Origin: a virus
DNA length: 21,553 bases
Direction: 5' to 3' (one strand)
IMG/VR virus record: IMGVR_UViG_3300034352_000089
Span: 1-21,553 of that record
In this document: in pieces, positions 1-21,101 of the stretch
How the letters are laid out: every line of letters starts with the position of its first letter
How positions within the stretch are numbered: position 1 is the stretch's first letter
Notes under the pieces: generated by a model
What the model saw: the letters and a program-made list of their open reading frames with translations, nothing else
What the model was told of the DNA's origin: nothing
The model's database searches: none
Program-made: the position numbers and the translations under genes

Positions 1-651
1 ATTACCAAGACCGTTCGCTGTTGATGTAATAATAACTCTAGTAGATTTACCTGATGATATTACTGGATATGTTGAGGTATAGAACTCACCGTCATTTTCT
101 ACAAAAGCAAACTCATCTAGGAAGAGTAATGATATAGACATACCACGAATAGAAGAACCTGATGTAGCAGCTGCAATAATACGTGAATTATTAGAAAACT
201 CTATGGATCCCTTATTAAGTACTTTACAGCCTGCTTGAAGAAAGAAAGGGAGGTTCTCTAGAGCTAATGTTACACGTGCTAACATTTCACGAGCAGTAGC
301 CCCTTTGTTTGCCAGAATAGCAATGGTTTTATCGGGATGGAATAATGCATACCAGAGAAGATATACAACAGATGATATTGATTTACCTGATTGACGACAA
401 GCTAATACTATAGAAAACCTATTATCCTCAAAATGTTGAAACATTTCCTCTTGATAAGGGTAAAGGTCAAAGGGTGTTAAACCTTTGTCAAGATGGACAA
501 TCTTAATGTAATTCCTTGCAAAGTAAGCAGCATCTTCTACACATTTAGAATACTCTTCTACTTCATCAAGTGTCCATTGTTGAGATATACCATCTTTCTT
601 AACATTTGCATTACCAAGATAACCAAATTGTCCGTGTTGTAGTTCCATCAT
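1..651 (-). CDS. 17: Terminase large subunit, gp17-like, N-terminal ATPase part (cut by the window edge)
   Basis: This is the motor ATPase and nuclease that drives DNA into the prohead; only the first 217 residues are inside the window. Reading from 651 leaves an unbroken frame to position 1. Visible motifs are an adenine-binding-type YPYQ (residues 64-67), Walker A ACRQSGKS (84-91), Walker B LLFLDE with D179/E180 (175-180) and a coupling motif TSTANG (209-214), all at spacings typical of T4 gp17. The C-terminal nuclease domain lies off the edge. The start is ATG at 651, overlapping the TGA of the upstream SufE-like gene in ATGA; a second ATG directly follows at 648 and could be used instead. 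I see no strong Shine-Dalgarno, so translational coupling is likely. The family assignment is very secure; completeness cannot be judged. Confidence 0.95.
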   Translation of the reverse strand, partial: MMELQHGQFGYLGNANVKKDGISQQWTLDEVEEYSKCVEDAAYFARNYIKIVHLDKGLTPFDLYPYQEEMFQHFEDNRFSIVLACRQSGKSISSVVYLLWYALFHPDKTIAILANKGATAREMLARVTLALENLPFFLQAGCKVLNKGSIEFSNNSRIIAAATSGSSIRGMSISLLFLDEFAFVENDGEFYTSTYPVISSGKSTRVIITSTANGLGN

Positions 652-1040
652 TTTGGTATTTTAGAGTTCATTATATCAATCATTTGAAAAAACCCTGATG
701 TACGATTCATAGATAATAACTCATCTATGTTAAGTATATCAAATTCTCTAGCATTTATAGTTCTATTTGATGAATTGAATACATCTAATAACATGTAAGC
801 ATATCCTGATGCTATCATTGCATCTGACCATGCTTTAAACTTACCATCCTCAATGTCAACATATAACTGAAATTGACAATATGTTACTTGATTTTTAGAT
901 ACCCTTTTCTCTTCTGATAAAGGATCATTTTGTAGCTTTTTACCTAAAGATATTAAGTGCGTATAGATTATATTAGGTTCCATTTCTTTCATAATTTCTA
1001 GAGCATCAAATGTATCTTTATACTTTTCAATAATATTCAT
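648..1040 (-). CDS. SufE-like sulfur-acceptor protein (Fe-S cluster assembly)
   Basis: SufE takes persulfide sulfur from the cysteine desulfurase SufS and passes it to the SufBCD scaffold. The 130 residues align along the whole SufE fold from memory of the E. coli protein: YTHLISLGKKL (26-36) matches the YIIELGQRL helix, NQVTYCQFQLYV (50-61) matches the catalytic-cysteine strand with C55 at the active position, SDAMIASGYAYMLLDVF (72-88) matches the DSDAAIVKG helix, and LSMNRTSGFFQMI (109-121) matches the LTPSRSQGLEAMI end. The usual GCQS around the cysteine is YCQF here, which is odd. The start overlaps the upstream stop in TAATG and the stop overlaps the gp17 start in ATGA. No SufS, SufB, SufC or SufD is in the window, so it would have to work with host partners. 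That role is inference; the family call is fairly firm. Confidence 0.85.
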   Translation of the reverse strand: MNIIEKYKDTFDALEIMKEMEPNIIYTHLISLGKKLQNDPLSEEKRVSKNQVTYCQFQLYVDIEDGKFKAWSDAMIASGYAYMLLDVFNSSNRTINAREFDILNIDELLSMNRTSGFFQMIDIMNSKIPK

Positions 1041-1318
1041 TATATTTCTTCCATAATACCTTCAACAATCATCTTAATAGCACGTGGATTATCAGATTCA
1101 ATAGTCTCGGATCTACATTGGTACCATCTACGCAATTCCTGTAATATTGTCTTTTCTAGGGTTAGAGTTTCTTTTTTGTTAAGATCAAGTTCATAAGTTT
1201 TATAATACGTTAAGTATGGGTCCGATGTACGGTACGCTTTCATCCTTTGTGTTAGATTCTTTGTAATACCAACTTTAATCAGATTAGACTTAACTTTAAT
1301 AATATAATAATAATACAT
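1040..1318 (-). CDS. Small GIY-YIG superfamily protein of T5orf172/MUG113 type
   Basis: This 92-residue protein has the arrangement of the T5orf172-type branch of GIY-YIG nucleases: YYYII near the start (3-7, the GIY strand), KVGIT (15-19, the YIG strand), an arginine in QRMKAYR (R25), a glutamate in LEKTILQEL (E55) and another in SETIE (E71). These match the expected catalytic arginine and metal-binding glutamate. It is a stand-alone domain with no obvious DNA-binding extension. It lies between the gp16 and gp17 homologues, a place where T4 has no gene, and is followed by the SufE-like gene with a TAATG overlap. Free-standing homing endonucleases often sit beside packaging and replication genes in T4-like phages, so a selfish or gene-conversion role is possible. 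Its activity and target are unknown. Confidence 0.75.
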   Translation of the reverse strand: MYYYYIIKVKSNLIKVGITKNLTQRMKAYRTSDPYLTYYKTYELDLNKKETLTLEKTILQELRRWYQCRSETIESDNPRAIKMIVEGIMEEI

Positions 1319-1666: not shown

Positions 1667-2434
1667 TTAATGTTCTACAAAGTAGTCAATAGTATCTATA
1701 ATTTCGTATTCATCTTCTGGTGAAGCGGTAGCTGGATCAACATCCGATTTAATTTTTTCTAGGAGTATCTGTGGAGTTACAGTAGTATCTGTAATACCTA
1801 TCTCAGTATGTTTAATAATACCTGAGTCTTGTATACCTTGATAAAACCTTAGTTTTGATGTAAAATCTAATGTATATACAATAGTTCTTCTATATAAGAA
1901 ATCACCCTCATACTCTTCTGTTAAGTTTACAGCCTGTAGTGTAAACGGAACATCTGTTTTCCTATTAACATTAGAGTTTTCTATAATAGTTACAGTATAA
2001 TCAGGTTGGAATAATGGTAATATCTGTTCTATTATTTGTAGTCCTTCATCCATATTCTTAGCTAATATAGATAATTGAAACCCTATATTATATGGTGCGA
2101 ATGTTCTAAGAAACCTTTTCTTATAGGAATCAGTAGGGTGTGCATAAGCATCCTTAATATTTTTATTAAGTTTAGCTGTAGCATCATAATCTATAGAAGT
2201 TATCTCAAATGCCATCCTTGGAAGTTTAATAGCAATACCCTCTTCTCGAGGATTCTTTTCTTCTTCAAGTCGAGCAATAAACTTTTGTTTAGGTCCGTAC
2301 GCTAAAGGTACTCTATTAGTTTCGAGTATATTACCGGCAGCATCTCTTTTTTGTATCTGTATATCATTAAATAATGTTCCAAATACAGATACAAGATTTC
2401 TTATATGCTTGTTATAAAAAGGAGTTTCAAACAT
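1667..2434 (-). CDS. 15: Tail sheath stabiliser / tail terminator, gp15-like
   Basis: In T4, gp15 forms a hexameric ring that caps the finished tail tube and sheath and docks to the neck. This 255-residue protein (T4 gp15 has 272) matches along its length: FYNKHIRNLVSVFGTLFNDIQIQKR (6-30) against T4 FYNSSFRRYATLMGDLFSNIQIKR, RVPLAYGPKQKF (41-52), LPRMAFEITSIDYDA (71-85), and the strongly conserved EQILPLFQPDYTVTI (136-150). The C-terminal tail after about residue 200 is divergent and acidic. It sits between gp14 and gp16 exactly as in T4, with only two bases separating it from each neighbour. Confidence 0.93.
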   Translation of the reverse strand: MFETPFYNKHIRNLVSVFGTLFNDIQIQKRDAAGNILETNRVPLAYGPKQKFIARLEEEKNPREEGIAIKLPRMAFEITSIDYDATAKLNKNIKDAYAHPTDSYKKRFLRTFAPYNIGFQLSILAKNMDEGLQIIEQILPLFQPDYTVTIIENSNVNRKTDVPFTLQAVNLTEEYEGDFLYRRTIVYTLDFTSKLRFYQGIQDSGIIKHTEIGITDTTVTPQILLEKIKSDVDPATASPEDEYEIIDTIDYFVEH

Positions 2435-2436
2435 AT

Positions 2437-3333
2437 TTAAGGTTCTCCGAACGGATTAGATTCAGAAAAATCAATTATAGAATCTGCGTTTTTGTCAAAT
2501 GCTATATTAGAATCTACATTAGATTCTTCAGTATTAGGGTTAGATAAAGAAGATGCATCCGAAACAATTAATGCAGACGAACTAGATTTTTCACCTACAA
2601 TAGGATATGTAGAGGATACTTGAAATTCTCTACCTTTTCCGTCTGACCCGTGAGAGTTAGTAATATATATGTTGGATGTGGTATTGGTGAAAAGTACTTC
2701 TTTAGATACTTCCCCTATAACTGTAACATCTACTGTATCTGTAGCTTGTGTTACTATTTCACCTACAGTAAATAGCTGTGAAACTGACTTTTCAATACCG
2801 AATACATCATAATTAGCATGAATAGACTCAAATTGGTCTATAGCTGGAACAGATGTATTAAACTCTTCTGAAGCGTACTCGAAGAGGTTACAATGTAACT
2901 GATATGTAGGTAAATTACCAAGTGCATAAAAAGGAAGTTCATGTTCTACATGAGATATCTCAAACATAGCATTAGATAATGGCATATATATAAGATCACC
3001 CTCAAAAGGACGAATCTGATTCTCTGAAAAAAGTATCTTTTCCCATCTTGATTTAGATACAATAAATGTAGCTTGATCTCTAATCTGAAGTCCGAATTTA
3101 GACATAAGATCGCCTTCACCACCCCATCCTTCAGTATTTTCTATATACATTTCTATAGAATAGGTATTCTCAAACTTAGCATAATCTTCATTTAATATAT
3201 CATCTTTTGTTATAACATGTCTAGGTAGATACATAACATCTTGCCCAAACATCTGGAGAGATTCAATAATAATATCTTCATAGAGATTCTGTTCTGATTT
3301 TACTTTATGGTTAAAGTGTGTATTAGTTGCCAT
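2437..3333 (-). CDS. 14: Neck protein, gp14-like
   Basis: gp14 works with gp13 to close the DNA-filled head and make the attachment site for the tail. The 298-residue protein (T4 gp14 is 256) shows the family blocks IIIESLQMFGQDVMYLPR (21-38, T4 IVAESIQMRGVECYYVPR), FGLQIRDQATFIVS (80-93), FEGDLIYMPLSNAMFEISHVE (110-130, T4 [20 protein letters not shown]) and PFYALGN (134-140). The last 80 or so residues are Ser/Asn/Asp-rich, look disordered, and account for the extra length. It starts six bases after the gp13 stop and ends two bases before gp15, so it is probably co-transcribed with both. Confidence 0.93.
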   Translation of the reverse strand: MATNTHFNHKVKSEQNLYEDIIIESLQMFGQDVMYLPRHVITKDDILNEDYAKFENTYSIEMYIENTEGWGGEGDLMSKFGLQIRDQATFIVSKSRWEKILFSENQIRPFEGDLIYMPLSNAMFEISHVEHELPFYALGNLPTYQLHCNLFEYASEEFNTSVPAIDQFESIHANYDVFGIEKSVSQLFTVGEIVTQATDTVDVTVIGEVSKEVLFTNTTSNIYITNSHGSDGKGREFQVSSTYPIVGEKSSSSALIVSDASSLSNPNTEESNVDSNIAFDKNADSIIDFSESNPFGEP

Positions 3334-3339
3334 AACTTA

Positions 3340-4089
3340 TTAACCTATCATAAAGTCAATAGGGAGCTCGTACGATAACCTAATATCTGCTTCTATCTTT
3401 TCAATCTCCGCAATAGCATCATCATATAGTTGTCTACCATTTAAAGTAATTCCACCGGGTAAAACCATACCATCAAATTTAATTAAATTCTGACCCCATT
3501 GCTTCTTTATAAGCTGTGTAAGATACTTTTTCAACAAACGATCATTATATAAGGATGTGGCAGTTTCTGGGTCTATAGTAGACCATGCAGCTACTAGTAG
3601 ATAACTTCCTACTTCTAACTCATCATCATCTACATCTAAAAATAACTTGTGTTCATGTCTAGAAAATCTAATAGCCTCTGTTGTACCAGATCCTAATTTC
3701 ATATCATAGAGGGCTAATGATGATTGCATCATAGTATATTCTGCAATACCACCCATTGACATAAGTCTGTTCATATCAGCCAATCTCATTTGATACTCAA
3801 TATCAAAGAGGAAATTAGACCCAGAAGCATCTATAGGTAATATCCTATCTACCCATAAAATCTGATTAGATAGATCAAGGTATTTGTTCTCTTTATCCTC
3901 AGCTGTTATTAGATGTTTAAAATATACTTTTTTTGTAGCATCAGAATGGTATTCTTGCCAGAACTCGAAAGCTTCATCTAAACGATCTTCTAATTGATCT
4001 TCATCCACATTTACTTCAAGTACAGGTTCCCCTAATTCTCTTAAACAATAGTTAACTAGGGTCTCTCTTGAATTTGGTTGTAAAGTCAT
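3340..4089 (-). CDS. 13: Neck protein, gp13-like
   Basis: gp13 is the head-completion/neck protein that binds under the portal with gp14. The 249-residue protein is shorter than T4 gp13 (309), mostly for lack of the middle glycine-rich insertion. The N-terminal helix region LVNYCLRELGEPVLEVNVDEDQLEDRLDEAFEFWQEYHSD (11-50) parallels T4 [37 protein letters not shown]. The C-terminus carries the diagnostic block GMVLPGGITLNGRQLYDDA (about 207-225), matching T4 GMMLPGGVTIDGQRLIEEA, and ends DFMIG like T4 FGILVG. A 41-base gap containing a perfect TATAAATA precedes it, so it probably begins a late transcription unit for the neck and packaging genes. Confidence 0.93.
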   Translation of the reverse strand: MTLQPNSRETLVNYCLRELGEPVLEVNVDEDQLEDRLDEAFEFWQEYHSDATKKVYFKHLITAEDKENKYLDLSNQILWVDRILPIDASGSNFLFDIEYQMRLADMNRLMSMGGIAEYTMMQSSLALYDMKLGSGTTEAIRFSRHEHKLFLDVDDDELEVGSYLLVAAWSTIDPETATSLYNDRLLKKYLTQLIKKQWGQNLIKFDGMVLPGGITLNGRQLYDDAIAEIEKIEADIRLSYELPIDFMIG

Positions 4090-4119: not shown

Positions 4120-4127
4120 TATTTATA
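4120..4127 (-). promoter_or_regulatory. T4 late-promoter-like octamer TATAAATA before gp13
   Basis: The minus strand reads TATAAATA here, the exact T4 late -10 consensus recognised by the gp55 sigma factor. It lies in the 41-base gap between the giant gene and gp13, and its 3' end is 30 bases before the gp13 ATG, leaving room for a short leader. A second exact copy lies 57 bases upstream. That this phage uses a gp55-type factor is inferred from its T4-like gene set. Confidence 0.7.
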
Positions 4128-4130
4128 CAT

Positions 4131-7100
4131 TTAGTCTTCTTGGTTCTTAAGCTGTGCCATATAAGATTCTATTTTATATTTATATTTAAACGGAAGTCTA
4201 ATATAATTGTTATCATAATAACCAGGACCTGTTACATCAGCAGGTCCTGTAACAAATCTATCAACTACTTTAAGGTCGAAAGCATTATGATGAAGCGATT
4301 GGTATAGATCGATCCAATAAGACGACCAATTATCTGCAGTACCAGTACTATCTCCATGAATTTTTAGTCTAATATACCAATAACCATCTTGACCAATATA
4401 AGCTTCATGCTGTGACGATGTGTGAGGAGCTCCAATATATCTTACAGATCCTATATCCGCAGTAAGATTAGAGCTTCTATTCCGAATAGATATTGTCTGT
4501 TCAGACATTACAAAATCAGTAGAAAGTGTTTTAATTTTTAACATTATTTCATGCTTTTTCTGGTTATACGGTATCTCTATAGAATACTGATTTAAATCTA
4601 ATATGGATTGAGTTGACCCAGTTTCTATTTTACCATCATCTAGAACATAATCTGTAGTAGCGTCTACAGGTGTATGAGCTGTTCTTGTAGTAGGATAACC
4701 CACTCTAGATTGTTCAAGAGAGGACATATCAAGTCGTGTTTTGATTATACCATTTGTTATAATTTCATACTTGTCGTTTGGTGTAGAAGTTTCAGCTGCC
4801 ATATCAATAAACCAATAAGGTTTTAATGGGTCATTGTGTGGTATGCTACGTTTATATATATTTTTAGGAATTATTATGTTTTCCCAAAATGTACCATTCC
4901 ATTTCCAATTATCTAAATGTGTATCATTAATACTCGGGTTTTCAGGAAAAGCCATCCCAGCTGGTAACCCTAATTGCTGTCGCTGTTTCTTTGTTTTAGC
5001 ATCAGCCTTTGGTGCTATATGAATCCAATACCTAGTATCTAATAATTCATGATGACCATTTGATGTCATTTTAGGATCTGCCCATCCTGTAGGTTCCGGT
5101 GAAGGTAATTGATCCATCAATTGTATACATTTATAAAATCCTGAAGACCATGGACCCATACATGAATCATAATCTTCAGTTCCTCTAGTTGTGTTAAAAT
5201 CGTAGGAGTGAGATACATATAATACTGTATCACCTACAGAATAGGGTAAGCCTCTTTGATATAGTGTAGTTTTAGGGTATTCTGATAAATAATACCCTCC
5301 GGAGTTATTTGTATATGTCATATCAAGTTCAGTCCAGTCAGTACCTGGAAGATTAGGCTGAACTTGAGCATTATTACTAACAGATGTATTAACTTCATTC
5401 CGGATCCATAACCCGTCAAAATTAGATAACCCATTACCCGCACATACTACAGACGTCCATAATTTGTCTTTATCCCAAATTACATCACCTTTCTCATATA
5501 CTCTAGCTATATCCCATTGTCTTATATCAGGGTTCATAGCATAGTTACCATTAGTATCAAATAAAATCCTATAAGGATTTATTTTATCCGCAAAGAGAAA
5601 TCCACGAAGAGAAGATGGGTGAGGTTTAAGATCTGTTAGGTCAGTTACCCCATATTGATAGTTCTCTGTATCTTCATAATGGAGAGAAGGTAGCAGTGCA
5701 TCTTGGTAATGAATAGATCTTAAATTAAGTATATCCTTTCTAGAGACAGATTGGTATGGCCATACATTTGCAGGTAGGCCTACAATAAAGGGAAGGTTAT
5801 CTACTCCTGAAAGATTTGGATGAAAAGGCCTTGATAGTGTTGTCTTAGCGGATGATGAATCAAAGAGGTGAGTTGTTCCTTCAAACCAATCAGTCCAATC
5901 TGCTCCATCCTCATTAGGAGAATTGTTTAGTGTTACTGCCGGCCATACTTTTCCGGGTATTTTCCCTGGTATATATGATTCTCTTGTCTGTACTGATGAA
6001 TGTTTAAGAAGTCTTACTTTAGCTCCGGAAGACAGAAAAGGTTCTGATTTATAAACATCTGGGTTAATAGCTGTTATTTTATCACCAAGAGTGAAAAAAT
6101 TTCTCCGCCCATCAGGATGATAATAATTTAGTGACAACATTTCATTATCTATTAAAGGTTCCACTCCAATATCTATTAAATTATAATCGTTTTCTGAAAG
6201 TATTGACGGTATAAGGTATTCTTTGGGTACAGTAGCTTTATTCCCAAAATGACCATAAAATTTAACATAAAATAAGTTCAGAGGACTTTTACCATCCCAA
6301 ACATCCCCGGGATATACACAAGCTATTTTTCTGTCATAATCCTTAGAAGTGTATTTTGTAAACCACTTTAAGTCTCCCATATCGGCAATAGAATATCTAA
6401 GACCTTCTACCATATCTGATATGTCTATTAGGTCATTACCACCGGAGTCCTTCTCAAATACAGGTTTCCAAACAGTAGCACCTGGGATATTAGTTACAGT
6501 AGACCCGTTTGCTCTAGCTACAAATGTTTTACCCACCATTCCAGCTTCAAATTCGTAATATTTAATAAGATTGACTACTACTTTTTCGCCATCTATAAGT
6601 GCCGCACCAAAATCAACTCCATCAGGAGTTGCTGTGTAGTCAACACCCTCTGTCTGAAGAACTTCATTTACATATACCTTTATTACATCACCAGCTGTCG
6701 GATCATAAGCACCAGCTTCTCCAATTCTAGCTCCTTGCCAAGCAGTTAGAGTATTATTAAATGATATAGTTGAACTACCAGAGCTACCATAATCACCTAT
6801 ATCGTATAATTCCGTCCCTCCGGATGGGAACTGATTATTATAAAACTGAATTGGATTGTTTTCAAGGTCAGTAGCAGGAACTGTATATTCTTGGATATAA
6901 GTATTATAGAACGACTGAGCACGATAAAAATTATGTCCTGTATATGTTGGAATAGCAACCGGAGTTAAACTAGTAATATCTGTAGCTCCAGTTGGCCAAT
7001 TACCAGTCGAAAGTTCGTTAGCAACAGCATTGCCTTCATGATCCGAACTCGGCAGGCCTGGGATGGTTCCAGTCATAGCTCCATAATTCCATATATCGAA

Positions 7101-10100
7101 TTGGGTTGGTATTCTTGTGGATCCTGTATATTCTTTCTGAAACCAGTTATTTACACCTGCAAACATTTGTTCTTCAGTTTTTATTTCAAGACTTACCTCA
7201 AGGTATGTTATAGCTTTCATTTGTTCTGGCAATATATAATCACCAGTAATAATCTCATTCCTACCGTCTAGTTGAGCCCACTTATCCATTAAATCTAATA
7301 CATCATTACCATCCCCTATATTTGAAATTACATATTCTTCTCCCTCTATAATATCAGCGAAGGGTATCTCCGTTGGCTCAACCAGATTCTTCATAGATAT
7401 TTCAGATGAGTTATACCCTACAGAGGTTGCGTAAGCTGTACTAGTTGTTGTAGCTGTAGCTAGTGTAGGAGTAACACCTATTTCATATTGTATAAGATCA
7501 TCAGCAAACCCAGTTTTTATAAAATTATTTTGATACTCAACAAATAATTCGTCACATATATTAACATGTGTATTACCTTGTTTATCATAAGTCCAATCGA
7601 TAATATAACGATCTGGTATAGAAGACTGATCTAAATGACTAACATTACTTAAAGCTCCACTTTTCCAAGCGTCAGTTGCTAGTTTTAAATCATCCTTAAC
7701 GTCCCCTATAGTCATATCCTGCCAATGTATAGCGTATGATGGGTTTGTGTTTAATTTTGTAAAAGCTCTTTTAGCTAATTTAGCATATGATACAATAGAT
7801 CCTTCAGAACCCCTAACAATTGGTACAGCCGTACCACCTGCCAGATAATCTGCTGTCTGATTAAACATGCGATATAACCACTGATTATCCGAAACATCGT
7901 ATGTAGATTGTTCTAGAAGGGTTCCGTTTTTATATATCTGTATCTGATCGTCTGGGTTTTCATCTTTAAACATCATATAACGTGCTTTCGGTTGAAGATT
8001 TTTACCATAAGGTACGTCATAATCTTCTATGGAATAGAACTCCATGTAGTCATAATCTTCAATAGATTGTATATTAATGTTAGAGAGGTAGTGATTTATA
8101 GATGTATCTAGGCTACGTTCATCCTCATTTATTATATCATATCTTACCTGAAAAAGATTAATTAGAGAAGCTTTTTCTTCTTCTGAATTAAGAGTCTGGA
8201 GTATATAATCTCTAGAATTTTCATAATTATTGGTAAATAATATGGGTCCATTGGTCCCGGTGTTCTGCTGGGTGTATGTAGTATAAGTCTCCTCGTCAAC
8301 ATTAGGGAGTGTTGGCCAAACATAATTATTAATTGATAATATATTAGTACGCCACGAATCTGTTAAATTCTGCAGTTCAGTATCATCATAGTTGGAGTCT
8401 ATTAATACATCATGATTAAGATAAAAGAATGGATTCTCTACACCTTCTTCAATTGTTTTATTAGTAACAGAATAAGCTGATTTAAATTCTGTTTTAATCA
8501 CATCTTGATTTTCATTTACAACTTTAGCATAATATGTAGGAAGTATGTTATTTAGATACTTGTCTGTAAATTTTACAGACCACGTTTTGTCCTTTTCTGG
8601 GGAAGTATACGTTGGGACTGAGATTGTTGAAAACGAATAAGATGAATCCATTCTATTAATTTCATTGGATTCATAAGTCTCTTTAACTTCATTCCAATCA
8701 GTCTTATAAGAATAGGCCTTTATGTCACTAACATCAGTTATTGTATTATTACTAACAGCTGGATAAACATTAATATTTCCTTGACTTGCGGGCGGACTCA
8801 TTCCGACAATTACAGGAAACAAATCAATAAACGAGGATATTATTGAAGGTCTTAAAGGCTGACCAAAGGCATTACCACTTGGGTCAACTGTAGGATTTAA
8901 ATTGGAAACTGTATAGTCAGTACCCTCCACTAGTAAAACATTTGGTGTCACACTTGTGTTATAGACGTCAAGTGACCAAGATCCTGATACATAAGGTAAA
9001 GCAAATGTATTAGTAGCCAGTTCATTTTGGTTAACACCTGTTCCAATAGTCTCGAAAATGTACTTATAAGCATGTGAACCGTTCTCTTTTACTATAAACA
9101 GTTCTTTAAGTGCTTTAGTATAATCATTAAATGTAGGTATTCTTACAGAAGAATAAATTGGAGGCGAGGGTGATTCCTCTAGAATTACATTGTGTGTATT
9201 GAGGACATGTTTAGTAGAAGGATTTTGACTTATTGCATCTAAAACTGCATATAATCTACCTTCTGCCGTATTAAAACGGGCTGATCTGATTCTAAAATTA
9301 GGATCCGGATGATCTGGGTTTTCGTAAATATATTCTGATGTAGGACCAACCTCAAAATCTGGTTTAACTGTTCCTCCAAGATTATTAGCATTTGCTGTAT
9401 TAATTTCTACAGAATTAAATAAATACCTACCCCATCTAACAGATTTAATAGAACATCTTACAGAAACACCGTTTAAGGAAACCAATAAAACTTCTTCCCA
9501 TGCATCGTCTTTAATTTTGGGCCAGTTATGATTATGAAGTTCACCTTCTTGTCTTTGACGCTGTGATTTGGTTCTATGTTGACTATACCAATCATAAAAG
9601 AACGGGTTTATATCCTTAATGACTCTATGTGTATCAATGCTAATATGTTCTGGCAAAACATTGTGTTCTTCAATATAATCTAATAATTTATTTGCAGGTA
9701 GCTTATTAATTTCAATATAGGCTTGATCCTGATTTTCGTCTAAGAATATTTTTCTAGTTCCGGATTCTAAATTGTTAAGGTAATCTTTAATAAACGATAT
9801 AGAATATGTTATATCCTTTTCTTTTATTACTAAAGGGTCTGTACCTACAAATAAAGGATTATAAGATTCTTCTGCAAATTTTAATGCTTCTATTTCTCCA
9901 GAGTTGGATGCTGGGTAATTATCCCAAAACATAGTTATTCCAGATCCAGGAATACGCTCCTTTGTGCGATTTACTTGAGTTTCACCTACTAATATAGATT
10001 TATTTGGCCAGTTAGTAGCTTCATTTAGAGGATCAAATAAATTTAATGATTCTTCAGTTGAGAGTAGAGTTTCTCCATAGAAATTCCCGTTTCCATTAAA

Positions 10101-13100
10101 GTTTACATCAGGTTTAATAATAGTAGGTGTGTATGTGGGTACTTTATTCCAAGACCTACTCATAGAGCTCCCAAGAAAGGATATCGATGAATTTGCAATA
10201 CCTGTTTCTTCACGCTCAGTTTCTTGATTAGGAAAGCATATATGTCTAATACGTTTAGATACGCCTATATTCCAAAGATATTGGACCGAATTATCAAATT
10301 GAAGAGAACTTTTATGTCCGTATTCATCACCAGGTGATTTGGCTTTAACCCCTGAAAGTTCTATTACTTTAGCCTTAGCTATTAATTCTTCCGAATTACC
10401 ATCTGGGTCCGCTACAGATATCTCTGATGATTTAAGCTGATCTTGAAGAGGTTTAATTTTAGTTTTATACAGATGCTCTAGGAACCAATCATACACATCT
10501 TTATTAAATGTTGATTTCTTCCATGCCTCTTCGTTATCTTTAGGAAACTTAAGACCGTATTCATCACCTCGATGATCTTTAATACATGTATAGTGTTCTC
10601 CTAGTGAATAAACTTCCATTCCCTTTAACCAGTCCCAGCCACGGTTATAACTTTCATATCGCCAGATATATCTTCTCCAAAGGGAACTTGGTTTTCTCAC
10701 AGAAGAATTATATCTGACCCGAGTTGTTGCATCTTCAATAAAGTATATTATTTTCTCTGATCTACCTGTCGAGGTGTTAAGGGTCCAGTTTGTTGGGGTA
10801 TCGTAGTCCCCTTGTAGATCTGGTATAGAAGACTGATCTAAAGGAGGAATCTTAGGACCAAAGGCACAATGGCCAATATCAACACTTAGTTCAGTAATAG
10901 GAATATCATCAACCGGGAAACTAAACCCATCATACGCGTCTAGGTCTTCAGCTCCGGATCCGGAATATTTTGCATGAAAATAATAACCAAAAGCATTAAA
11001 AATATAGTAAGACTTTATTTGAAAAATATCTGGAAATTGCCGGTCAAGCCAATAATCATCGGTTATATTATTAAAAATATAAGCACCAAATAATATTGCG
11101 GATGAATATGTTCCATGAGTCATACCAGGAGTATAATTATCTAAATCTTTATAGCTCTGATGGTCACATATTTTTATAAGCTCATTTAAGGTAGAAACTG
11201 TGTGATTTATATAATTATTATGAAAATAAGTACCAGAACAAGTATAACCGGAATCATGAATCCAAGAGTATGGGAATTCAAATTCAGTTATTTCAACTGG
11301 TGGTTCAAGTACCATAGAAAGAGCTCTATATGTCCAAAGATGCCATTGCTCAGATCTATCTCCTGTTTCAAGAGACTTATAGTCATAAGGATCTATAGGA
11401 TCATCAGAATCACGGTCATACATACCTGCATTTAGTACATTACCTATTTTTAATGTATTGTTATTTTTGTCTTTAGGTAATGTAGTGTCCTCAATATCCT
11501 CAAAGAGCCAATCCGCTAAATCTGGATATAGTCCTCGGTCAAAATAAAGAGCATCAGGATCTTGACCGATCCACCAATTATCCTGAGATGGGTAATGGTT
11601 ATATCCTGCATCCCTGTTAAGTTTCATTTTTGAACTTGAGCCATTAGCTGTATTATTAAATGGAGCAAAGACCGACATTGGTCTTTTCGATGTTGGTGAA
11701 GCATCCACTACCCAATTCATTTCTGATATTACTGTCTGGTAAATAGCTTGAAGCAGTATATACATTTTAGGGAATATTACATCGAATACATCATACCCCT
11801 TCTCTTCATATACTTTAAGAGCATAATCAAAATCTGGTTCAAAAGACATATTAGGTATTCTTAAACCTTCTGAGTCTAGATCATTTTCTTTAAAAGATAG
11901 AGTTTTATATTCAATATTGTGTGTGTCGAGAATACCATACGATATTGAACCGGGCACTTCGGTATCGTAACTAAGAGTTGCACCATCAGCGTCAGTATAT
12001 AGGCCAGCAAAAAGATTTGTTTTTAAATGAAGATATTTAGATGTAAGTAGTGTTTCCCATGTTTGAACTGAAAACCATGAAGCTTTATCTACCCACCAAT
12101 TTAATACAGAATGGGTAGCTGTATGTTCAGGTTTATTATAACCATCATCTCTCATTTCAATAATGTTAGAGGAGCATGTTTTTCGACTATCTGCTCTTAC
12201 AGAACCTAGAACTGTATTAGCAATTTTATTGTCATCATTAACATAAGTCCCTGTTATATTAATACCCCTAGAAGTATCAAAAGTAGTAGCGGAATCAATA
12301 TAAAGTGACCCTGTTTCCCCTGTAGATATTACTACTTCTTCAGTAGCCATAGCATCTAATGGAATACGTGAATCTAAATACTTACCGTACAGCGCAGTAT
12401 CTGCAGAATTCTTTACAACAGACCTACCATCTTCATCGAATTTAGTATAATCGGTACCTATTTTTAAAGCCTTAGATGTAAGAAATATATTACGAGGAAA
12501 TACATTTTCCTTTACCTTTTCTTTTTCTGCAGAATTTAACCCATGATTTACTACCAATGGGTTACCTACAAATATATCTTCCCCTGAAAGATTAATCTGT
12601 GACGATTCTATTAATATATTAGGTTTATTAAAGAATGGCCAGATATCATTATATCCTTTAAGTATTTTATCTGAGTATAGTTTAACAGAAGAACCTATGT
12701 ATTCTGAATTAGATAACTCTGGGTATTCCTCCGAAAACTTTATTAATATATCATTAGGAAGTCGTGAAGCATCAATACCATACGTTGTTAGGTATTTCAA
12801 AGTAGGGTTAGAAGATCTTTTAATGATAGGTAATAAGTGGGTAGAATACCAAGATAATTGACTTTCAGTAAGTTTCTTAATACCAAGAACGTGTTCAAAC
12901 AGACGTTCAAATTCGGAAATTGAAGGAATAGGATCACTGTAATTTCTATATTTAGCTTGGAAGTCCCATATATACCTAGATTTTTCTTCATAATGAATGT
13001 ATATCGGGGTTACTAAAATATTATATAATACAGTATTATTAGTAGGAATTCCTGATGAAAGAGCTAGGAGTTCTTGAGCAACTGATAAAAGTATAACATC

Positions 13101-14108
13101 ATCTATAAGAAAAACTTCATCTCTTATAAAAGCAATAGTTGATGTGTTGTATGTTATATCTGAAGTATCACGTGCAATTTCTTCAAGGTCTAGAGCAGAC
13201 GGTGGTGTATTGTATAAGGATTCTATATTCTCAGAATTAGTCTCAAATATAGATGATAAACCAGTCTGGAGATTATGTGAATATGTTGCCTCTGGGACAA
13301 CCATAAATTTCAATTGAGATGCAGTTGAAATTAAATCATCAGAGTCTAATTCCTTTACTATATTCTTAGAAGCACCAATAGCTAAGGAGTGATCGAATAC
13401 TAATCTTGCTCGTGACCCAGATCCAGTAGATAAAGATTCTAGAAGACTGACTGATGTATCCCGAAATGTAGTATTTAATGTACCTGAGTCAATATAAAAA
13501 GGGTATTTTTCTGTTATAAACTCGGACGCTTTACGGGTTTCTGAGTTATATATTGAGTGTATATATAAATCTGCTTCAAGTTCTATAATATCCGAATCAG
13601 AATTAATATAATGTATAGAGGATATTATCCCTCTTGTATAGGTACCATCATCGTTAAGCTGTTGTACTGTTTCATTTATTGTGAAATTAAATATCTCATC
13701 TTTATCTGCTTTTATTCTATAACGATGAACATCAGATACTTGTCTATTCCATATTAAATTGATTCTAGAATCTAATGAAAGTACACCTTCCGTATCTAAA
13801 ACTAAACCTCTACCAGGTTCTATTACTGTATCCGTATTAACAGTATCTGTAATAATAGGATCCCATAAATCCTCTTTAACTTTTACAAATAATCTGTGAC
13901 CTGTATTGGGCTCAACTCTCGAAAGTTGTGGGTTATAGTTTAAGAAACCTACTAGAGAACCTAGTGGGTATAATTCTGAATCTTCAAGTGGGGTAGATAT
14001 AGTTAATGCATTAACACTCGGAGACTCTGTAAAATAACGAAAATTATCATCGAGTTCCTGGTATGTTAAAGAAGATTCTTTATCTAATCTATATGTTAAT
14101 TTGCTCAT
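4131..14108 (-). CDS. Giant virion structural / fibre-like protein, 3,325 residues
   Basis: This is a single unbroken frame of 3,325 codons filling the place where T4 has wac and the gp9-gp12 genes. I do not recognise a full-length family. The N-terminus contains LTYQELDDNF (14-23), the LTxxELDxNF start common on marine phage fibre-type proteins. Fibre-like YxNGxxLxxGxDYxVS segments occur near residues 1,720, 2,060 and 2,480. Segments resembling small CBM5/12-type carbohydrate-binding modules (aromatic-Gly-Asp-xVxY...YxC...W) occur near 1,165, 2,870 and 2,950. Two divergent copies of a roughly 100-residue unit lie near 1,430-1,530 and 1,837-1,935. There is no signal peptide or clear membrane segment, and tryptophan and tyrosine are frequent throughout. 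An AGGG lies four bases before the start and late-promoter-like octamers lie upstream. A tail or baseplate-attached, host-contacting role is likely from position and composition, but unproven. Confidence 0.8.
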   Translation of the reverse strand: MSKLTYRLDKESSLTYQELDDNFRYFTESPSVNALTISTPLEDSELYPLGSLVGFLNYNPQLSRVEPNTGHRLFVKVKEDLWDPIITDTVNTDTVIEPGRGLVLDTEGVLSLDSRINLIWNRQVSDVHRYRIKADKDEIFNFTINETVQQLNDDGTYTRGIISSIHYINSDSDIIELEADLYIHSIYNSETRKASEFITEKYPFYIDSGTLNTTFRDTSVSLLESLSTGSGSRARLVFDHSLAIGASKNIVKELDSDDLISTASQLKFMVVPEATYSHNLQTGLSSIFETNSENIESLYNTPPSALDLEEIARDTSDITYNTSTIAFIRDEVFLIDDVILLSVAQELLALSSGIPTNNTVLYNILVTPIYIHYEEKSRYIWDFQAKYRNYSDPIPSISEFERLFEHVLGIKKLTESQLSWYSTHLLPIIKRSSNPTLKYLTTYGIDASRLPNDILIKFSEEYPELSNSEYIGSSVKLYSDKILKGYNDIWPFFNKPNILIESSQINLSGEDIFVGNPLVVNHGLNSAEKEKVKENVFPRNIFLTSKALKIGTDYTKFDEDGRSVVKNSADTALYGKYLDSRIPLDAMATEEVVISTGETGSLYIDSATTFDTSRGINITGTYVNDDNKIANTVLGSVRADSRKTCSSNIIEMRDDGYNKPEHTATHSVLNWWVDKASWFSVQTWETLLTSKYLHLKTNLFAGLYTDADGATLSYDTEVPGSISYGILDTHNIEYKTLSFKENDLDSEGLRIPNMSFEPDFDYALKVYEEKGYDVFDVIFPKMYILLQAIYQTVISEMNWVVDASPTSKRPMSVFAPFNNTANGSSSKMKLNRDAGYNHYPSQDNWWIGQDPDALYFDRGLYPDLADWLFEDIEDTTLPKDKNNNTLKIGNVLNAGMYDRDSDDPIDPYDYKSLETGDRSEQWHLWTYRALSMVLEPPVEITEFEFPYSWIHDSGYTCSGTYFHNNYINHTVSTLNELIKICDHQSYKDLDNYTPGMTHGTYSSAILFGAYIFNNITDDYWLDRQFPDIFQIKSYYIFNAFGYYFHAKYSGSGAEDLDAYDGFSFPVDDIPITELSVDIGHCAFGPKIPPLDQSSIPDLQGDYDTPTNWTLNTSTGRSEKIIYFIEDATTRVRYNSSVRKPSSLWRRYIWRYESYNRGWDWLKGMEVYSLGEHYTCIKDHRGDEYGLKFPKDNEEAWKKSTFNKDVYDWFLEHLYKTKIKPLQDQLKSSEISVADPDGNSEELIAKAKVIELSGVKAKSPGDEYGHKSSLQFDNSVQYLWNIGVSKRIRHICFPNQETEREETGIANSSISFLGSSMSRSWNKVPTYTPTIIKPDVNFNGNGNFYGETLLSTEESLNLFDPLNEATNWPNKSILVGETQVNRTKERIPGSGITMFWDNYPASNSGEIEALKFAEESYNPLFVGTDPLVIKEKDITYSISFIKDYLNNLESGTRKIFLDENQDQAYIEINKLPANKLLDYIEEHNVLPEHISIDTHRVIKDINPFFYDWYSQHRTKSQRQRQEGELHNHNWPKIKDDAWEEVLLVSLNGVSVRCSIKSVRWGRYLFNSVEINTANANNLGGTVKPDFEVGPTSEYIYENPDHPDPNFRIRSARFNTAEGRLYAVLDAISQNPSTKHVLNTHNVILEESPSPPIYSSVRIPTFNDYTKALKELFIVKENGSHAYKYIFETIGTGVNQNELATNTFALPYVSGSWSLDVYNTSVTPNVLLVEGTDYTVSNLNPTVDPSGNAFGQPLRPSIISSFIDLFPVIVGMSPPASQGNINVYPAVSNNTITDVSDIKAYSYKTDWNEVKETYESNEINRMDSSYSFSTISVPTYTSPEKDKTWSVKFTDKYLNNILPTYYAKVVNENQDVIKTEFKSAYSVTNKTIEEGVENPFFYLNHDVLIDSNYDDTELQNLTDSWRTNILSINNYVWPTLPNVDEETYTTYTQQNTGTNGPILFTNNYENSRDYILQTLNSEEEKASLINLFQVRYDIINEDERSLDTSINHYLSNINIQSIEDYDYMEFYSIEDYDVPYGKNLQPKARYMMFKDENPDDQIQIYKNGTLLEQSTYDVSDNQWLYRMFNQTADYLAGGTAVPIVRGSEGSIVSYAKLAKRAFTKLNTNPSYAIHWQDMTIGDVKDDLKLATDAWKSGALSNVSHLDQSSIPDRYIIDWTYDKQGNTHVNICDELFVEYQNNFIKTGFADDLIQYEIGVTPTLATATTTSTAYATSVGYNSSEISMKNLVEPTEIPFADIIEGEEYVISNIGDGNDVLDLMDKWAQLDGRNEIITGDYILPEQMKAITYLEVSLEIKTEEQMFAGVNNWFQKEYTGSTRIPTQFDIWNYGAMTGTIPGLPSSDHEGNAVANELSTGNWPTGATDITSLTPVAIPTYTGHNFYRAQSFYNTYIQEYTVPATDLENNPIQFYNNQFPSGGTELYDIGDYGSSGSSTISFNNTLTAWQGARIGEAGAYDPTAGDVIKVYVNEVLQTEGVDYTATPDGVDFGAALIDGEKVVVNLIKYYEFEAGMVGKTFVARANGSTVTNIPGATVWKPVFEKDSGGNDLIDISDMVEGLRYSIADMGDLKWFTKYTSKDYDRKIACVYPGDVWDGKSPLNLFYVKFYGHFGNKATVPKEYLIPSILSENDYNLIDIGVEPLIDNEMLSLNYYHPDGRRNFFTLGDKITAINPDVYKSEPFLSSGAKVRLLKHSSVQTRESYIPGKIPGKVWPAVTLNNSPNEDGADWTDWFEGTTHLFDSSSAKTTLSRPFHPNLSGVDNLPFIVGLPANVWPYQSVSRKDILNLRSIHYQDALLPSLHYEDTENYQYGVTDLTDLKPHPSSLRGFLFADKINPYRILFDTNGNYAMNPDIRQWDIARVYEKGDVIWDKDKLWTSVVCAGNGLSNFDGLWIRNEVNTSVSNNAQVQPNLPGTDWTELDMTYTNNSGGYYLSEYPKTTLYQRGLPYSVGDTVLYVSHSYDFNTTRGTEDYDSCMGPWSSGFYKCIQLMDQLPSPEPTGWADPKMTSNGHHELLDTRYWIHIAPKADAKTKKQRQQLGLPAGMAFPENPSINDTHLDNWKWNGTFWENIIIPKNIYKRSIPHNDPLKPYWFIDMAAETSTPNDKYEIITNGIIKTRLDMSSLEQSRVGYPTTRTAHTPVDATTDYVLDDGKIETGSTQSILDLNQYSIEIPYNQKKHEIMLKIKTLSTDFVMSEQTISIRNRSSNLTADIGSVRYIGAPHTSSQHEAYIGQDGYWYIRLKIHGDSTGTADNWSSYWIDLYQSLHHNAFDLKVVDRFVTGPADVTGPGYYDNNYIRLPFKYKYKIESYMAQLKNQED
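4177..4184 (-). promoter_or_regulatory. Second TATAAATA octamer inside the 3' end of the giant gene
   Basis: The minus strand reads TATAAATA within the last codons of the giant gene, 87 bases before the gp13 start. It could be a tandem late promoter for the gp13 unit. It lies in an AT-rich coding stretch (Lys/Tyr codons), so chance is a fair alternative. Confidence 0.35.
7610..7635 (-). repeat. 26-bp exact repeat, copy 2, inside the giant gene
   Basis: These 26 bases are identical to positions 10817-10842 in the same orientation. Both copies encode LDQSSIPD in the same frame. The flanking protein sequence does not match, so this is a short exact duplication or converted segment, not a whole repeated domain. 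Confidence 0.85.
8301..8598 (-). repeat. Divergent duplicated unit, copy 2, in the giant protein
   Basis: The encoded segment runs from EKDKTWSVKF through KYLNN, NENQD and NPFFY to NNYVWPTL. The same landmarks occur in the same order in the segment encoded at 9510-9822 (EKDITYSISF, DYLNN, DENQD, NPFFY, HNHNWPKI). The similarity is at protein level only, suggesting an old internal duplication. Boundaries are approximate. Confidence 0.55.
9510..9822 (-). repeat. Divergent duplicated unit, copy 1, in the giant protein
   Basis: This is the partner of 8301-8598, sharing EKDxT(Y/W)S, YLNN, ENQD, NPFFY and a WP-containing end in the same order, roughly 100 residues each. Boundaries are approximate. 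Confidence 0.55.
10817..10842 (-). repeat. 26-bp exact repeat, copy 1, inside the giant gene
   Basis: This is the partner of 7610-7635, identical over 26 bases and also encoding LDQSSIPD. The copies are about 3.2 kb apart. Confidence 0.85.
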
Positions 14109-14146: not shown

Positions 14147-14163
14147 TATTTATTAGATTTATA
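14147..14163 (-). promoter_or_regulatory. Late-promoter-like octamers before the giant gene
   Basis: Two near-consensus octamers lie in the 68-base gap before the giant gene: AATAAATA (14147-14154) and TATAAATC (14156-14163) on the minus strand. Each differs from the T4 late consensus TATAAATA at one base. They end 38 and 47 bases before the ATG at 14108, a sensible distance for a late transcript leader. This is one of only two gaps in the window longer than 60 bases. Confidence 0.5.
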
Positions 14164-14176
14164 TCAATAGGTATTA

Positions 14177-14374
14177 TTATCCAACATATCCTTTTTCTGA
14201 CACATAACCGTCATTTATAGCATTATATATCTCCTGTTCCTCTGGAGAAAGTGCTCTATTAAAGATAAATAACTTCTTTCTTAATGTCTCATGGAGTTCT
14301 GTATTATCCGGATCGTTTTCTTTGGCGGCCGCTAAATCAGAAGCCACTTGAATATAATCAATATTATTCTCCAT
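14177..14374 (-). CDS. Small protein of unknown function after the PAAR gene
   Basis: I do not recognise this protein. The preferred start is ATG at 14374, giving 65 residues and overlapping the PAAR stop by 11 bases. The frame is open further upstream to an ATG at 14446 (89 residues), but that would overlap the PAAR gene by 83 bases. An AGGGA lies about 13 bases before the preferred ATG, so spacing is loose. The product is charged and mostly helical in character (ASDLAAAKEN, ELHETLRKKL, LSPEEQEIYNAI), with no membrane segment or cysteine. Position between the PAAR tip and the giant virion gene suggests a small virion or assembly factor, which is inference only. Confidence 0.55.
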   Translation of the reverse strand: MENNIDYIQVASDLAAAKENDPDNTELHETLRKKLFIFNRALSPEEQEIYNAINDGYVSEKGYVG

Positions 14375-14696
14375 TTGCAAAAACATTCCCTGACCCAGTC
14401 TCTGCAGAGTTTGCTGCCCACGATTCGTGGCCTTTAGTTGCATCACCTTTACGATGAACAGCTATGTTATTAATGTGTACATTTTCTGAACCAGCAGCAG
14501 CTGGATCTCCACATGAAGGCAACTCATCATCAGCATCTTCTGGCTTATCCACCGTATCACCTATTCTTACAGTATATTTGTTATTAGTAAATACATTAGT
14601 AGATCCTGTGGCATAAGCATACTGATGATGTGGATTAGGTGTGTCTGACGCATGTCCTGCATGTCTATCAAGTTCTACTCTAACTATTCCAGTCAT
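14364..14696 (-). CDS. PAAR-motif tail spike tip protein (gp5.4-like)
   Basis: PAAR proteins form the sharp metal-binding cone at the end of the tail spike (T4 gp5.4) that first pierces the host envelope. The 110-residue product shows the repeated PAAR pattern: GSTNVFTNNKYTVRIGD (31-47), GSENVHINNIAVHRKGD (69-85) and a final GSGNVFANG (101-109). Candidate metal ligands are among H12, H15, H23, H24, C62, H74, H81 and H90. Its length fits a single-domain PAAR protein. It ends shortly after the last VFANG strand. The start overlaps the upstream stop in TAATG, implying translational coupling to the chaperone-like gene. The tip would sit on a gp5-type spike encoded elsewhere. Confidence 0.87.
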   Translation of the reverse strand: MTGIVRVELDRHAGHASDTPNPHHQYAYATGSTNVFTNNKYTVRIGDTVDKPEDADDELPSCGDPAAAGSENVHINNIAVHRKGDATKGHESWAANSAETGSGNVFANGE

Positions 14697-15193
14697 TAGG
14701 TACCATCATCATTGATATTGTGGTCAATAGAATCATTATTATCCAAATTTGGCCAACCTATGTTGAACGGATCTTCCTGATTTGATATATCACGTAATGC
14801 TTGTATATATGTATCTAGTTCAGTAATATCATCTGTTGGTGTTAAATCTAACCGAACTTCGCTGTTATACCTATGAACTCTCCATTCAATATCATTAATC
14901 ATGCGGTTGCGTGTTTCTTTAACAGTTTCCCATTCCATATTAATATTGTTTTGCGTTATTTGATCAATTTCTTCTTGCGTTATATCACCAACTACCCAAC
15001 TGGTAGCACTAGAATCCCAATCACAAGTTTGAGTATTCTTGTCATACGTTGGTTGTTCTGAGCACACAACATAACCAGCATCGGCAATCTCTTCATCTGT
15101 AAAAGAAGTCGGGTCTGTCCTTGTAGATCCATCAGACAACACTATTCTAAAAGGTAGTGCTTCTGGGAATTTTCCGTTGTGAGAATATAGCAT
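14696..15193 (-). CDS. Tail fibre assembly chaperone-like protein (Phage_tail_APC type)
   Basis: The 165-residue product has a beta-type N-terminus (FRIVLSDGSTRTDPTSFTDEEIADAGYVV, 15-43) with a Trp-containing segment DWDSSATSWVVGDIT (58-72), then a helical part. Residues 86-148, with WETVKETRNRMINDIEW, then TPTDDITELDTYIQALRDI and finally FNIGWPNL, fit the Phage_tail_APC pattern of an R-x-x-x-L/I-x-x-D-W helix and a YRQALRDIP...WP end. Such proteins help phage tail fibres fold or assemble, and the gene directly follows a large adhesin gene. A good AGGAAG at 15199-15204, five bases before the ATG, supports the start. The family call is from pattern memory and moderate in strength. Confidence 0.65.
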   Translation of the reverse strand: MLYSHNGKFPEALPFRIVLSDGSTRTDPTSFTDEEIADAGYVVCSEQPTYDKNTQTCDWDSSATSWVVGDITQEEIDQITQNNINMEWETVKETRNRMINDIEWRVHRYNSEVRLDLTPTDDITELDTYIQALRDISNQEDPFNIGWPNLDNNDSIDHNINDDGT

Positions 15194-20150: not shown

Positions 20151-21101
20151 CTAAAGAGTTTCGATTATTACGTAGCCATGACCAGTCTGATAACCAAGAG
20201 TGGTGGTATTTTGACCGCTGTTATATGAACCACCGCCACCTCCGCTGCCTCTATCAGTATTAGTATTACCGCCACCGCCACCGCCTGAGTAGCCACCGCC
20301 ACCGCCACCAACACCTTGATGACCATCTCCGGTAGCTCCTGCACCGCATCCAAAGCCACCAACACCTTCGACAGTCGACTGATAATGCCCAAGTCCACCA
20401 ATCGCACCATTGGCAACTGAAACTGGGGGGGCTCCTAGTCCAGTATGTTCTCCAGAGGTCACAGAGTCTTGATGCCAACCTGCTCCACCTGTTCCATCCC
20501 ACCAATTACCATCACAACCTCCTGGTGCTCCAGCCCCTCCATTTGTACCTCCACTTCCAGGACAGCCACCTGTTCCAATGCTACCAGATGTAGAGTATGA
20601 AGCGTCTATTCCGGTTTTGTTTCCGTCGGTGCCACTTCCTCCTCCTCCTCCTCCAGCTGCTATCAGGGGGGTATTTGAACTTGAGGGGGTTCCAATATTT
20701 GAATTCCACACAAAACTACCTCCTCCCCCAGAACTAGGATAAATATCGCTCTGCACGCCAGTTGTAGGGTCTCCCTCTTGAGTACCTTGTTGGCCAACAA
20801 TTATTTTTATAGTATCCCCTTCTGTAAGATTAAACTCCCCCTTTATAATCGCCCCTAGTCCTTTTCTCGACCCGTCAGCTGATGCTCCAGCTACAGTGAT
20901 ACTATAGGTAGAGGTGCAAGAAACTATCCATTCTTGAATACCATTAGTAACAGTTACACCTGAATATGCTTGATTAATTTGACTTTGAGAAGGTCCAGTC
21001 CTACCTATTTGTCCTGCATTAGTGAATGTGTTAGAGAATGGGTCACAATCACCACTACCAAACGTAAAAGTCGCCACGTGGAAAGTATGCGGCAAACTCA
21101 C
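20151..21101 (-). CDS. Glycine-rich adhesin (paralogue 2)
   Basis: The 316-residue product is a glycine-rich beta protein of the same kind as that at 17262-18347: NTFTNAGQIGRTGPSQSQI (24-42) corresponds to TFTNGSTTGQYGPTQSDL, then GIQEWIVSCTSTYSITVAGAS, TIKIIVGQQG, and glycine tracts SSGGGGSFVW, AAGGGGGGSG, GGGGGGYSGGGGGG and GGGGGSYNSG, ending HGYVIIETL. It lacks the NSGLIG...GVHD anchoring module. Unlike its paralogue it has several cysteines (C19, and others in GGCPG, GGCDG and FGCGAG). The start is GTG at 21101, overlapping the upstream TGA in GTGA. Base composition is visibly richer in G+C than the flanking genes, partly because of glycine codons. A host-range adhesin tip attached to the upstream fibre is the likely role. 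Confidence 0.75.
   Translation of the reverse strand: MSLPHTFHVATFTFGSGDCDPFSNTFTNAGQIGRTGPSQSQINQAYSGVTVTNGIQEWIVSCTSTYSITVAGASADGSRKGLGAIIKGEFNLTEGDTIKIIVGQQGTQEGDPTTGVQSDIYPSSGGGGSFVWNSNIGTPSSSNTPLIAAGGGGGGSGTDGNKTGIDASYSTSGSIGTGGCPGSGGTNGGAGAPGGCDGNWWDGTGGAGWHQDSVTSGEHTGLGAPPVSVANGAIGGLGHYQSTVEGVGGFGCGAGATGDGHQGVGGGGGGYSGGGGGGNTNTDRGSGGGGGSYNSGQNTTTLGYQTGHGYVIIETL

Follow-up and report, generated by a model that had tools for sequence, protein, structure and literature searches.

The question raised by this locus is what is encoded by one very long open reading frame in a 21,553-bp IMG/VR virus record, from a marine T4-like virus, the whole of which is here called the window. The original prediction had described a fibre-like gene with an uninterrupted frame of 3,325 codons directly upstream of gp13, and as to frame and place it was accurate: the boundaries 4131-14108 are exact, the frame opens with ATG, and in the direction of transcription gp13 follows with gp14 and gp15 next; only the strand had been missing, which is minus for this as for all genes in the window. 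The giant gene (hereafter the giant) and its surroundings are as follows.

1667..2434 (-), gp15, tail sheath stabiliser (PF16724)
2437..3333 (-), gp14, neck protein, head closure (PF11649)
3340..4089 (-), gp13, neck protein, head-tail adaptor (phrog_211)
4120..4127 (-), TATAAATA, late-promoter-like box between the giant and gp13, 37 nt before the gp13 ATG and kept in the related contig L002
4131..14108 (-), the giant ORF, ATG start, 3,325 aa, free of internal stops
14147..14154 (-), AATAAATA, box resembling a late promoter, 45 nt ahead of the giant's start codon
14177..14374 (-), small acidic ORF of 65 aa, 97% identical in relatives
14364..14696 (-), PAAR spike-tip protein (gp5.4-like)
14696..15193 (-), tail fibre assembly chaperone-like protein (Phage_tail_APC, PF16778)

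A gap of 41 nt separates the giant from gp13, and after gp15 a terminase-like ORF is met at the window edge; the upstream flank holds fibre-type genes, the fibre chaperone and the PAAR gene, and the downstream flank the neck genes, so that the giant is sited among baseplate and fibre genes. Two further small genes lie within this downstream block. One, downstream of the neck genes and ahead of the terminase large subunit (648-1040, minus strand), encodes a SufE protein of Fe-S cluster metabolism (PF02657, E=1e-14) and is a probable auxiliary metabolic gene; the other (1040-1318, minus strand) encodes a small T5orf172/MUG113 (GIY-YIG-like) protein, possibly a mobile endonuclease. On the other flank, two glycine-rich proteins on the minus strand recall polyglycine adhesin tips: that at 17262-18347 matches PF12810 and phrog_22713, and that at 20151-21101 has an 80% identical counterpart in the related genome G002.

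The giant encodes a protein of 378 kDa with a pI of 4.7, in which no clear membrane segment was found. At 34% GC the chance of meeting 3,325 successive sense codons is about log10 P ~ -109, and GC content over the three codon positions is 45/37/21%. Moreover, a second intact allele of 3,317 aa occurs in the IMG/VR records L001 and L002, the latter a 79-kb contig, with 93.8% amino acid and 95.9% nucleotide identity to that of the window, while L003 and L097 hold incomplete copies that do not differ from L002. Every indel between the two alleles is a multiple of three and keeps the frame, and dN (0.035) is below dS (0.071). From this second intact allele, the frame-preserving indels and dN<dS it follows that the giant is a real gene under selection and not an assembly error.

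As for its expression, the ATG of the giant is preceded by an RBS-like AGGG, and the window's coding strand carries six copies of the motif ATAAATA, each no more than 100 nt ahead of the start of a gene. The late promoter of S-PM2 is NATAAATA (PMC2984593), and as boxes of this kind stand before both starts, it is probable that the giant and gp13 are each served by a separate late promoter.

To understand what the protein does, it is helpful to divide it into the following parts.

14028..14108 (-), aa 1-27, N-terminal anchor peptide MSKLTYRLDKESSLTYQELDDNFRYFT, common to the N-termini of tail fibre/tail proteins of other phages
11409..14027 (-), aa ~28-900, conserved N-terminal region with 2.6% amino acid differences between alleles
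10569..11408 (-), aa ~901-1180, variable zone 1, with 13% amino acid differences and indels, silent changes not raised
6009..7418 (-), aa ~2231-2700, variable zone 2, with 13% amino acid differences
4875..4970 (approximate) (-), aa ~3047-3078, internal module around MAFPENPSINDTHLDNWKWNGTFWENI, resembling an N-terminal segment of other phage fibre-region proteins
4134..4661 (-), aa 3150-3325, conserved C-terminal region, mainly beta as predicted with very low confidence

At the extreme N-terminus of the giant, residues ~1-27 match those with which tail fibre/tail proteins of unrelated phages begin, and in the annotated phage collection the same peptide opens tail fibre, collar or tail proteins of Achromobacter, Flavobacterium, Klebsiella and Rheinheimera phages. 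The matches were stronger when the query was a consensus of proteins tagged with this peptide; when the first 40 residues of the giant itself were used instead, the matches persisted but were weaker, the best at E=4e-3. In Klebsiella pKp383 and Rheinheimera Barba5S the tagged genes adjoin baseplate wedge or spike genes, and two of the annotated tagged tail fibre/tail proteins give sub-threshold tail-collar matches. Furthermore, among marine loci fetched by gp13 alone, the ORF directly upstream of gp13 opens with the anchor peptide in L068, L071, L073 and L079-L083.

The peptide is also tied to a conserved gene order. The giant is the third and last gene of a trio formed by the PAAR gene, the small acidic ORF and a tagged protein, and in six of the eight marine contigs fetched through the peptide the tagged gene is likewise directly preceded by such a pair, a PAAR gene with a small ORF (small ORFs analogous to the 65-aa one are present in L101-L106); the tagged protein there has 184, 185 or 610 aa. 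On contig L103 the trio is located between gp5 (PF06714) and gp25/gp6/gp8, that is within a T4-type baseplate module, while next to gp13 it is found, with the giant as third member, both in the window and in G002. This linkage, together with the position of the L103 trio inside the baseplate module, leads us to infer that the anchor is a baseplate-docking peptide and the giant the adhesin docked by it.

Behind the anchor, the protein is of another character. Pfam, PHROG and PDB-sequence searches with the whole giant and ten pieces gave no convincing match, tblastn of its halves and ends against 50,697 phage records gave no significant match to the body, pattern scans of IMG/VR with the whole giant and six pieces returned the second allele only, plus contigs having short end motifs in common, and two scans of GTDB contigs with patterns of the giant matched nothing; in the literature, nothing was found on the protein. 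The only recognisable stretch is the MAFPENPSINDTHLDNWKWNGTFWENI module, which resembles an 'FP-x-P...WKWNGTFWE' segment (L098, with a weak match in P-SSM2); apart from it, these searches showed no likeness of the body to a known fibre or receptor-binding domain, a likeness not strictly required for membership among tagged fibres, as their bodies differ from one another. Several segments that look by eye like CBM5/12-like 'YxxGDxV..Y' modules were backed by no tool and are not claimed. Many long fibres have internal repeats; none were found in the giant, unlike those fibres, so its shape may be globular. Since no divergent homologue of the body was found in these searches, no deep alignment was available, and AlphaFold2 run without one gave unreliable models, with pLDDT of 29.5 for aa 2701-3325 and 39.6 for aa 3150-3325. 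Judged by these comparisons, the body appears to be an orphan, a large span of uncharacterised protein sequence, and the sequence link between the giant and known fibres lies in ~25 residues and one short internal motif, beside 3,000 residues of body to which no homologue was found.

The two alleles provide some insight into this body. They differ in 204 residues and, silently, in 120 codons. The replacement changes are clustered: their maximum over 150 codons is 33, compared with 17.5 under permutation, and none of 2,000 permutations reaches 33, whereas the silent changes are not clustered (p=0.87). Across the first 600 codons dN/dS is 0.09-0.24, indels are absent from aa 1-716, and at the other end aa 3126-3325 differ by 3% of residues. 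Because replacement changes concentrate in zones 1 and 2 while silent changes are even, these two zones are candidate exposed or receptor-contact regions. The pattern is one of relaxed or diversifying selection, two causes that two alleles cannot separate, and it fits exposed receptor-contact surfaces.

On these grounds the giant most likely serves in host attachment, as a protein of unusual size, a reading that follows from a short anchor peptide common to the tail fibres of many unrelated phages and then ~3,300 residues unlike known proteins; more specifically, we consider it probable that it is a baseplate-anchored tail fibre or adhesin with an orphan body. Expressed late from its own promoter, such a tail fibre/adhesin (receptor-binding protein) would be non-repetitive and probably multidomain; its N-terminal peptide of ~25 residues would attach it to the baseplate, probably close to the central spike with its PAAR tip, the conserved N-terminal ~900 residues would form its structural base, and the two variable zones, further out, would contact the host surface. 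The original prediction is thus upheld in its fibre reading, for which the N-terminal peptide match to tail fibres speaks, in its recognition of a fibre-type N-terminus, in the lack of a recognised full-length family among Pfam, PHROGs and PDB sequences, and, as a probable matter, in taking the product for a virion protein.

The locus itself is replaceable, as with swappable host-range loci. In L011, with gp13 and gp14 respectively 95% and 96% identical to those of the window, the slot before gp13 holds an unrelated 632-aa orphan (L011:2338-4236) and a small ORF; in P-TIM40 an unrelated 2,301-aa structural protein (phrog_697) is encoded directly upstream of gp13; and in the Pelagibacter phages HTVC008M and Mosig the slot is filled with metabolic genes. 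In marine T4-like contigs, the slot before gp13 is a general hot spot of gene swapping. The genes before gp13 in the marine T4-like loci L014-L090 are very diverse and include large unrelated ORFs (L020, 1,861 aa; L089, 1,792 aa; L043, 1,250 aa). The original prediction had proposed a comparison with such large gp13-adjacent ORFs of other marine phages; we ran it, and none was detectably related to the giant, neither P-TIM40 gp107 nor those of L018, L020, L022, L043, L053 and L089.

Cyanomyoviruses are reported to be without gp10, gp11, gp12, wac and gp34/35/37 (PMC2984593), which leaves room for new adhesins. The same report also gives some ground to the alternative that survives best, namely that the giant is a structural baseplate part and no receptor binder, stabilising the baseplate as a strap or as an extension of the fibre network and substituting for T4 gp9-gp12, since unknown large structural proteins may replace gp10, gp11, gp12, wac, g34, g35 and g37, absent in cyanomyoviruses (PMC2984593); the high conservation of the N-terminal 900 residues is also in its favour. 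We nevertheless hold it rather unlikely, as the close relative L011 has an unrelated protein in the slot, two zones gather replacement changes, and wedge proteins and a 4,335-aa DUF4815 protein are present elsewhere in the close relative G002. In fact, G002 encodes gp5, gp6, a gp7-like protein, gp8, the 4,335-aa DUF4815 protein and another of 1,512 aa, as well as a whole array of genes of fibre type, and since all of them are encoded in this relative, the giant does not replace the gp6, gp7-like and gp8 wedge genes. Between its baseplate and fibre genes G002 (L091-L094) also has an insertion of ~17-19 kb (contig 33.7-52.6 kb) with radical-SAM-like, sugar-metabolism-like and halogenase-like ORFs, as read by eye.

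The equivalence to wac or gp9-gp12 that the original prediction had suggested is not supported. Pfam and PHROGs, searched with the whole protein and pieces, gave no match to gp9, gp10, gp11 or gp12, and no fibritin (wac) match was found in Pfam at E<=0.1, at full length or in pieces; moreover the conserved partners are PAAR and the small ORF, and the L103 trio, with gp5 on one side and gp25/gp6 on the other, belongs to the baseplate module and not to the neck. That the giant is a neck or collar whisker, a fibritin analogue with its gene sited, as in T4, between those of the baseplate and gp13, is therefore very unlikely: its location directly upstream of gp13 agrees, but gp13 has a separate late-promoter-like box, and the anchor peptide is carried by tail fibres of phages that do not belong to the T4 group. 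The suggestion of a tape- or strap-like role likewise found no repeats and no other evidence to support it. Nor is the size exceptional, as had been supposed: the 4,335-aa DUF4815 protein after gp8 (L109:41-13045; G002 15941-28948) is larger than the giant, and the structural protein of P-TIM40 occupies the same slot.

Slightly less probable again is a PAAR-associated cargo injected into the host, comparable to a T6SS effector or to the large proteins that some phages eject. The conserved linkage to the PAAR gene just upstream and the very large, non-repetitive sequence would suit a cargo, but the third trio gene of other phages encodes a short or fibre-like protein, the same anchor peptide is on tail fibres, and no enzymatic or toxin domain was found by Pfam in the whole giant or its pieces. 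An assembly or frame artefact fusing several genes, to which the want of a divergent homologue and the purely metagenomic records lend something, has practically no chance against a different intact allele in other records.

Coming back to the giant as a docked adhesin, it would give a concrete link between a short N-terminal docking peptide, found in phages with contractile tails and in others, and a PAAR-linked locus with room for bodies of 184 to 3,325 residues. Such a link would help explain how marine T4-like phages without wac, gp10-gp12 and gp34-37 attach to their hosts, and for the body of the giant candidate receptor-contact zones are already mapped. As a tentative idea, rather doubtful at present, it might represent a new adhesin architecture, in which one non-repetitive chain of ~380 kDa made of new domains is held at the spike/PAAR region of the baseplate by a short docking peptide of wide exchange among phages and contacts the receptor through two internal zones instead of a C-terminal tip.

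Compared with known systems, the giant shares with T4 fibritin the gene position before gp13, with no detectable similarity. In P-TIM40, gp107 is likewise a giant structural-protein gene directly upstream of gp13, but it belongs to its own PHROG family, phrog_697, for which the giant has no match, and has a different N-terminus, and no sequence similarity was found between the two. The DUF4815/VrlC-like giants (the 4,335-aa protein of G002 and P-TIM40 gp104) are, as the giant, very large presumed tail proteins of T4-like marine phages; however, they are another family at another locus after gp8, the giant has no PF16075 match while the separate protein of G002 does, and G002 carries both giants. 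The third trio genes of L101-L106, from marine T4-like contigs, agree with the giant in synteny and N-terminal peptide, although their proteins have 184-610 aa, one with a sub-threshold BclA_C-like hint, and the trio was not seen beside gp13. Finally, the 'LTxRLxKGSxLTYQELDDNF'-type fibres (Achromobacter JWX and AMA2, Flavobacterium immuto, Klebsiella pKp383, Rheinheimera Barba5S) have bodies of ~500-900 aa, unrelated in sequence, whereas the giant has 3,325 non-repetitive residues; yet they begin with the same peptide over residues ~1-27.
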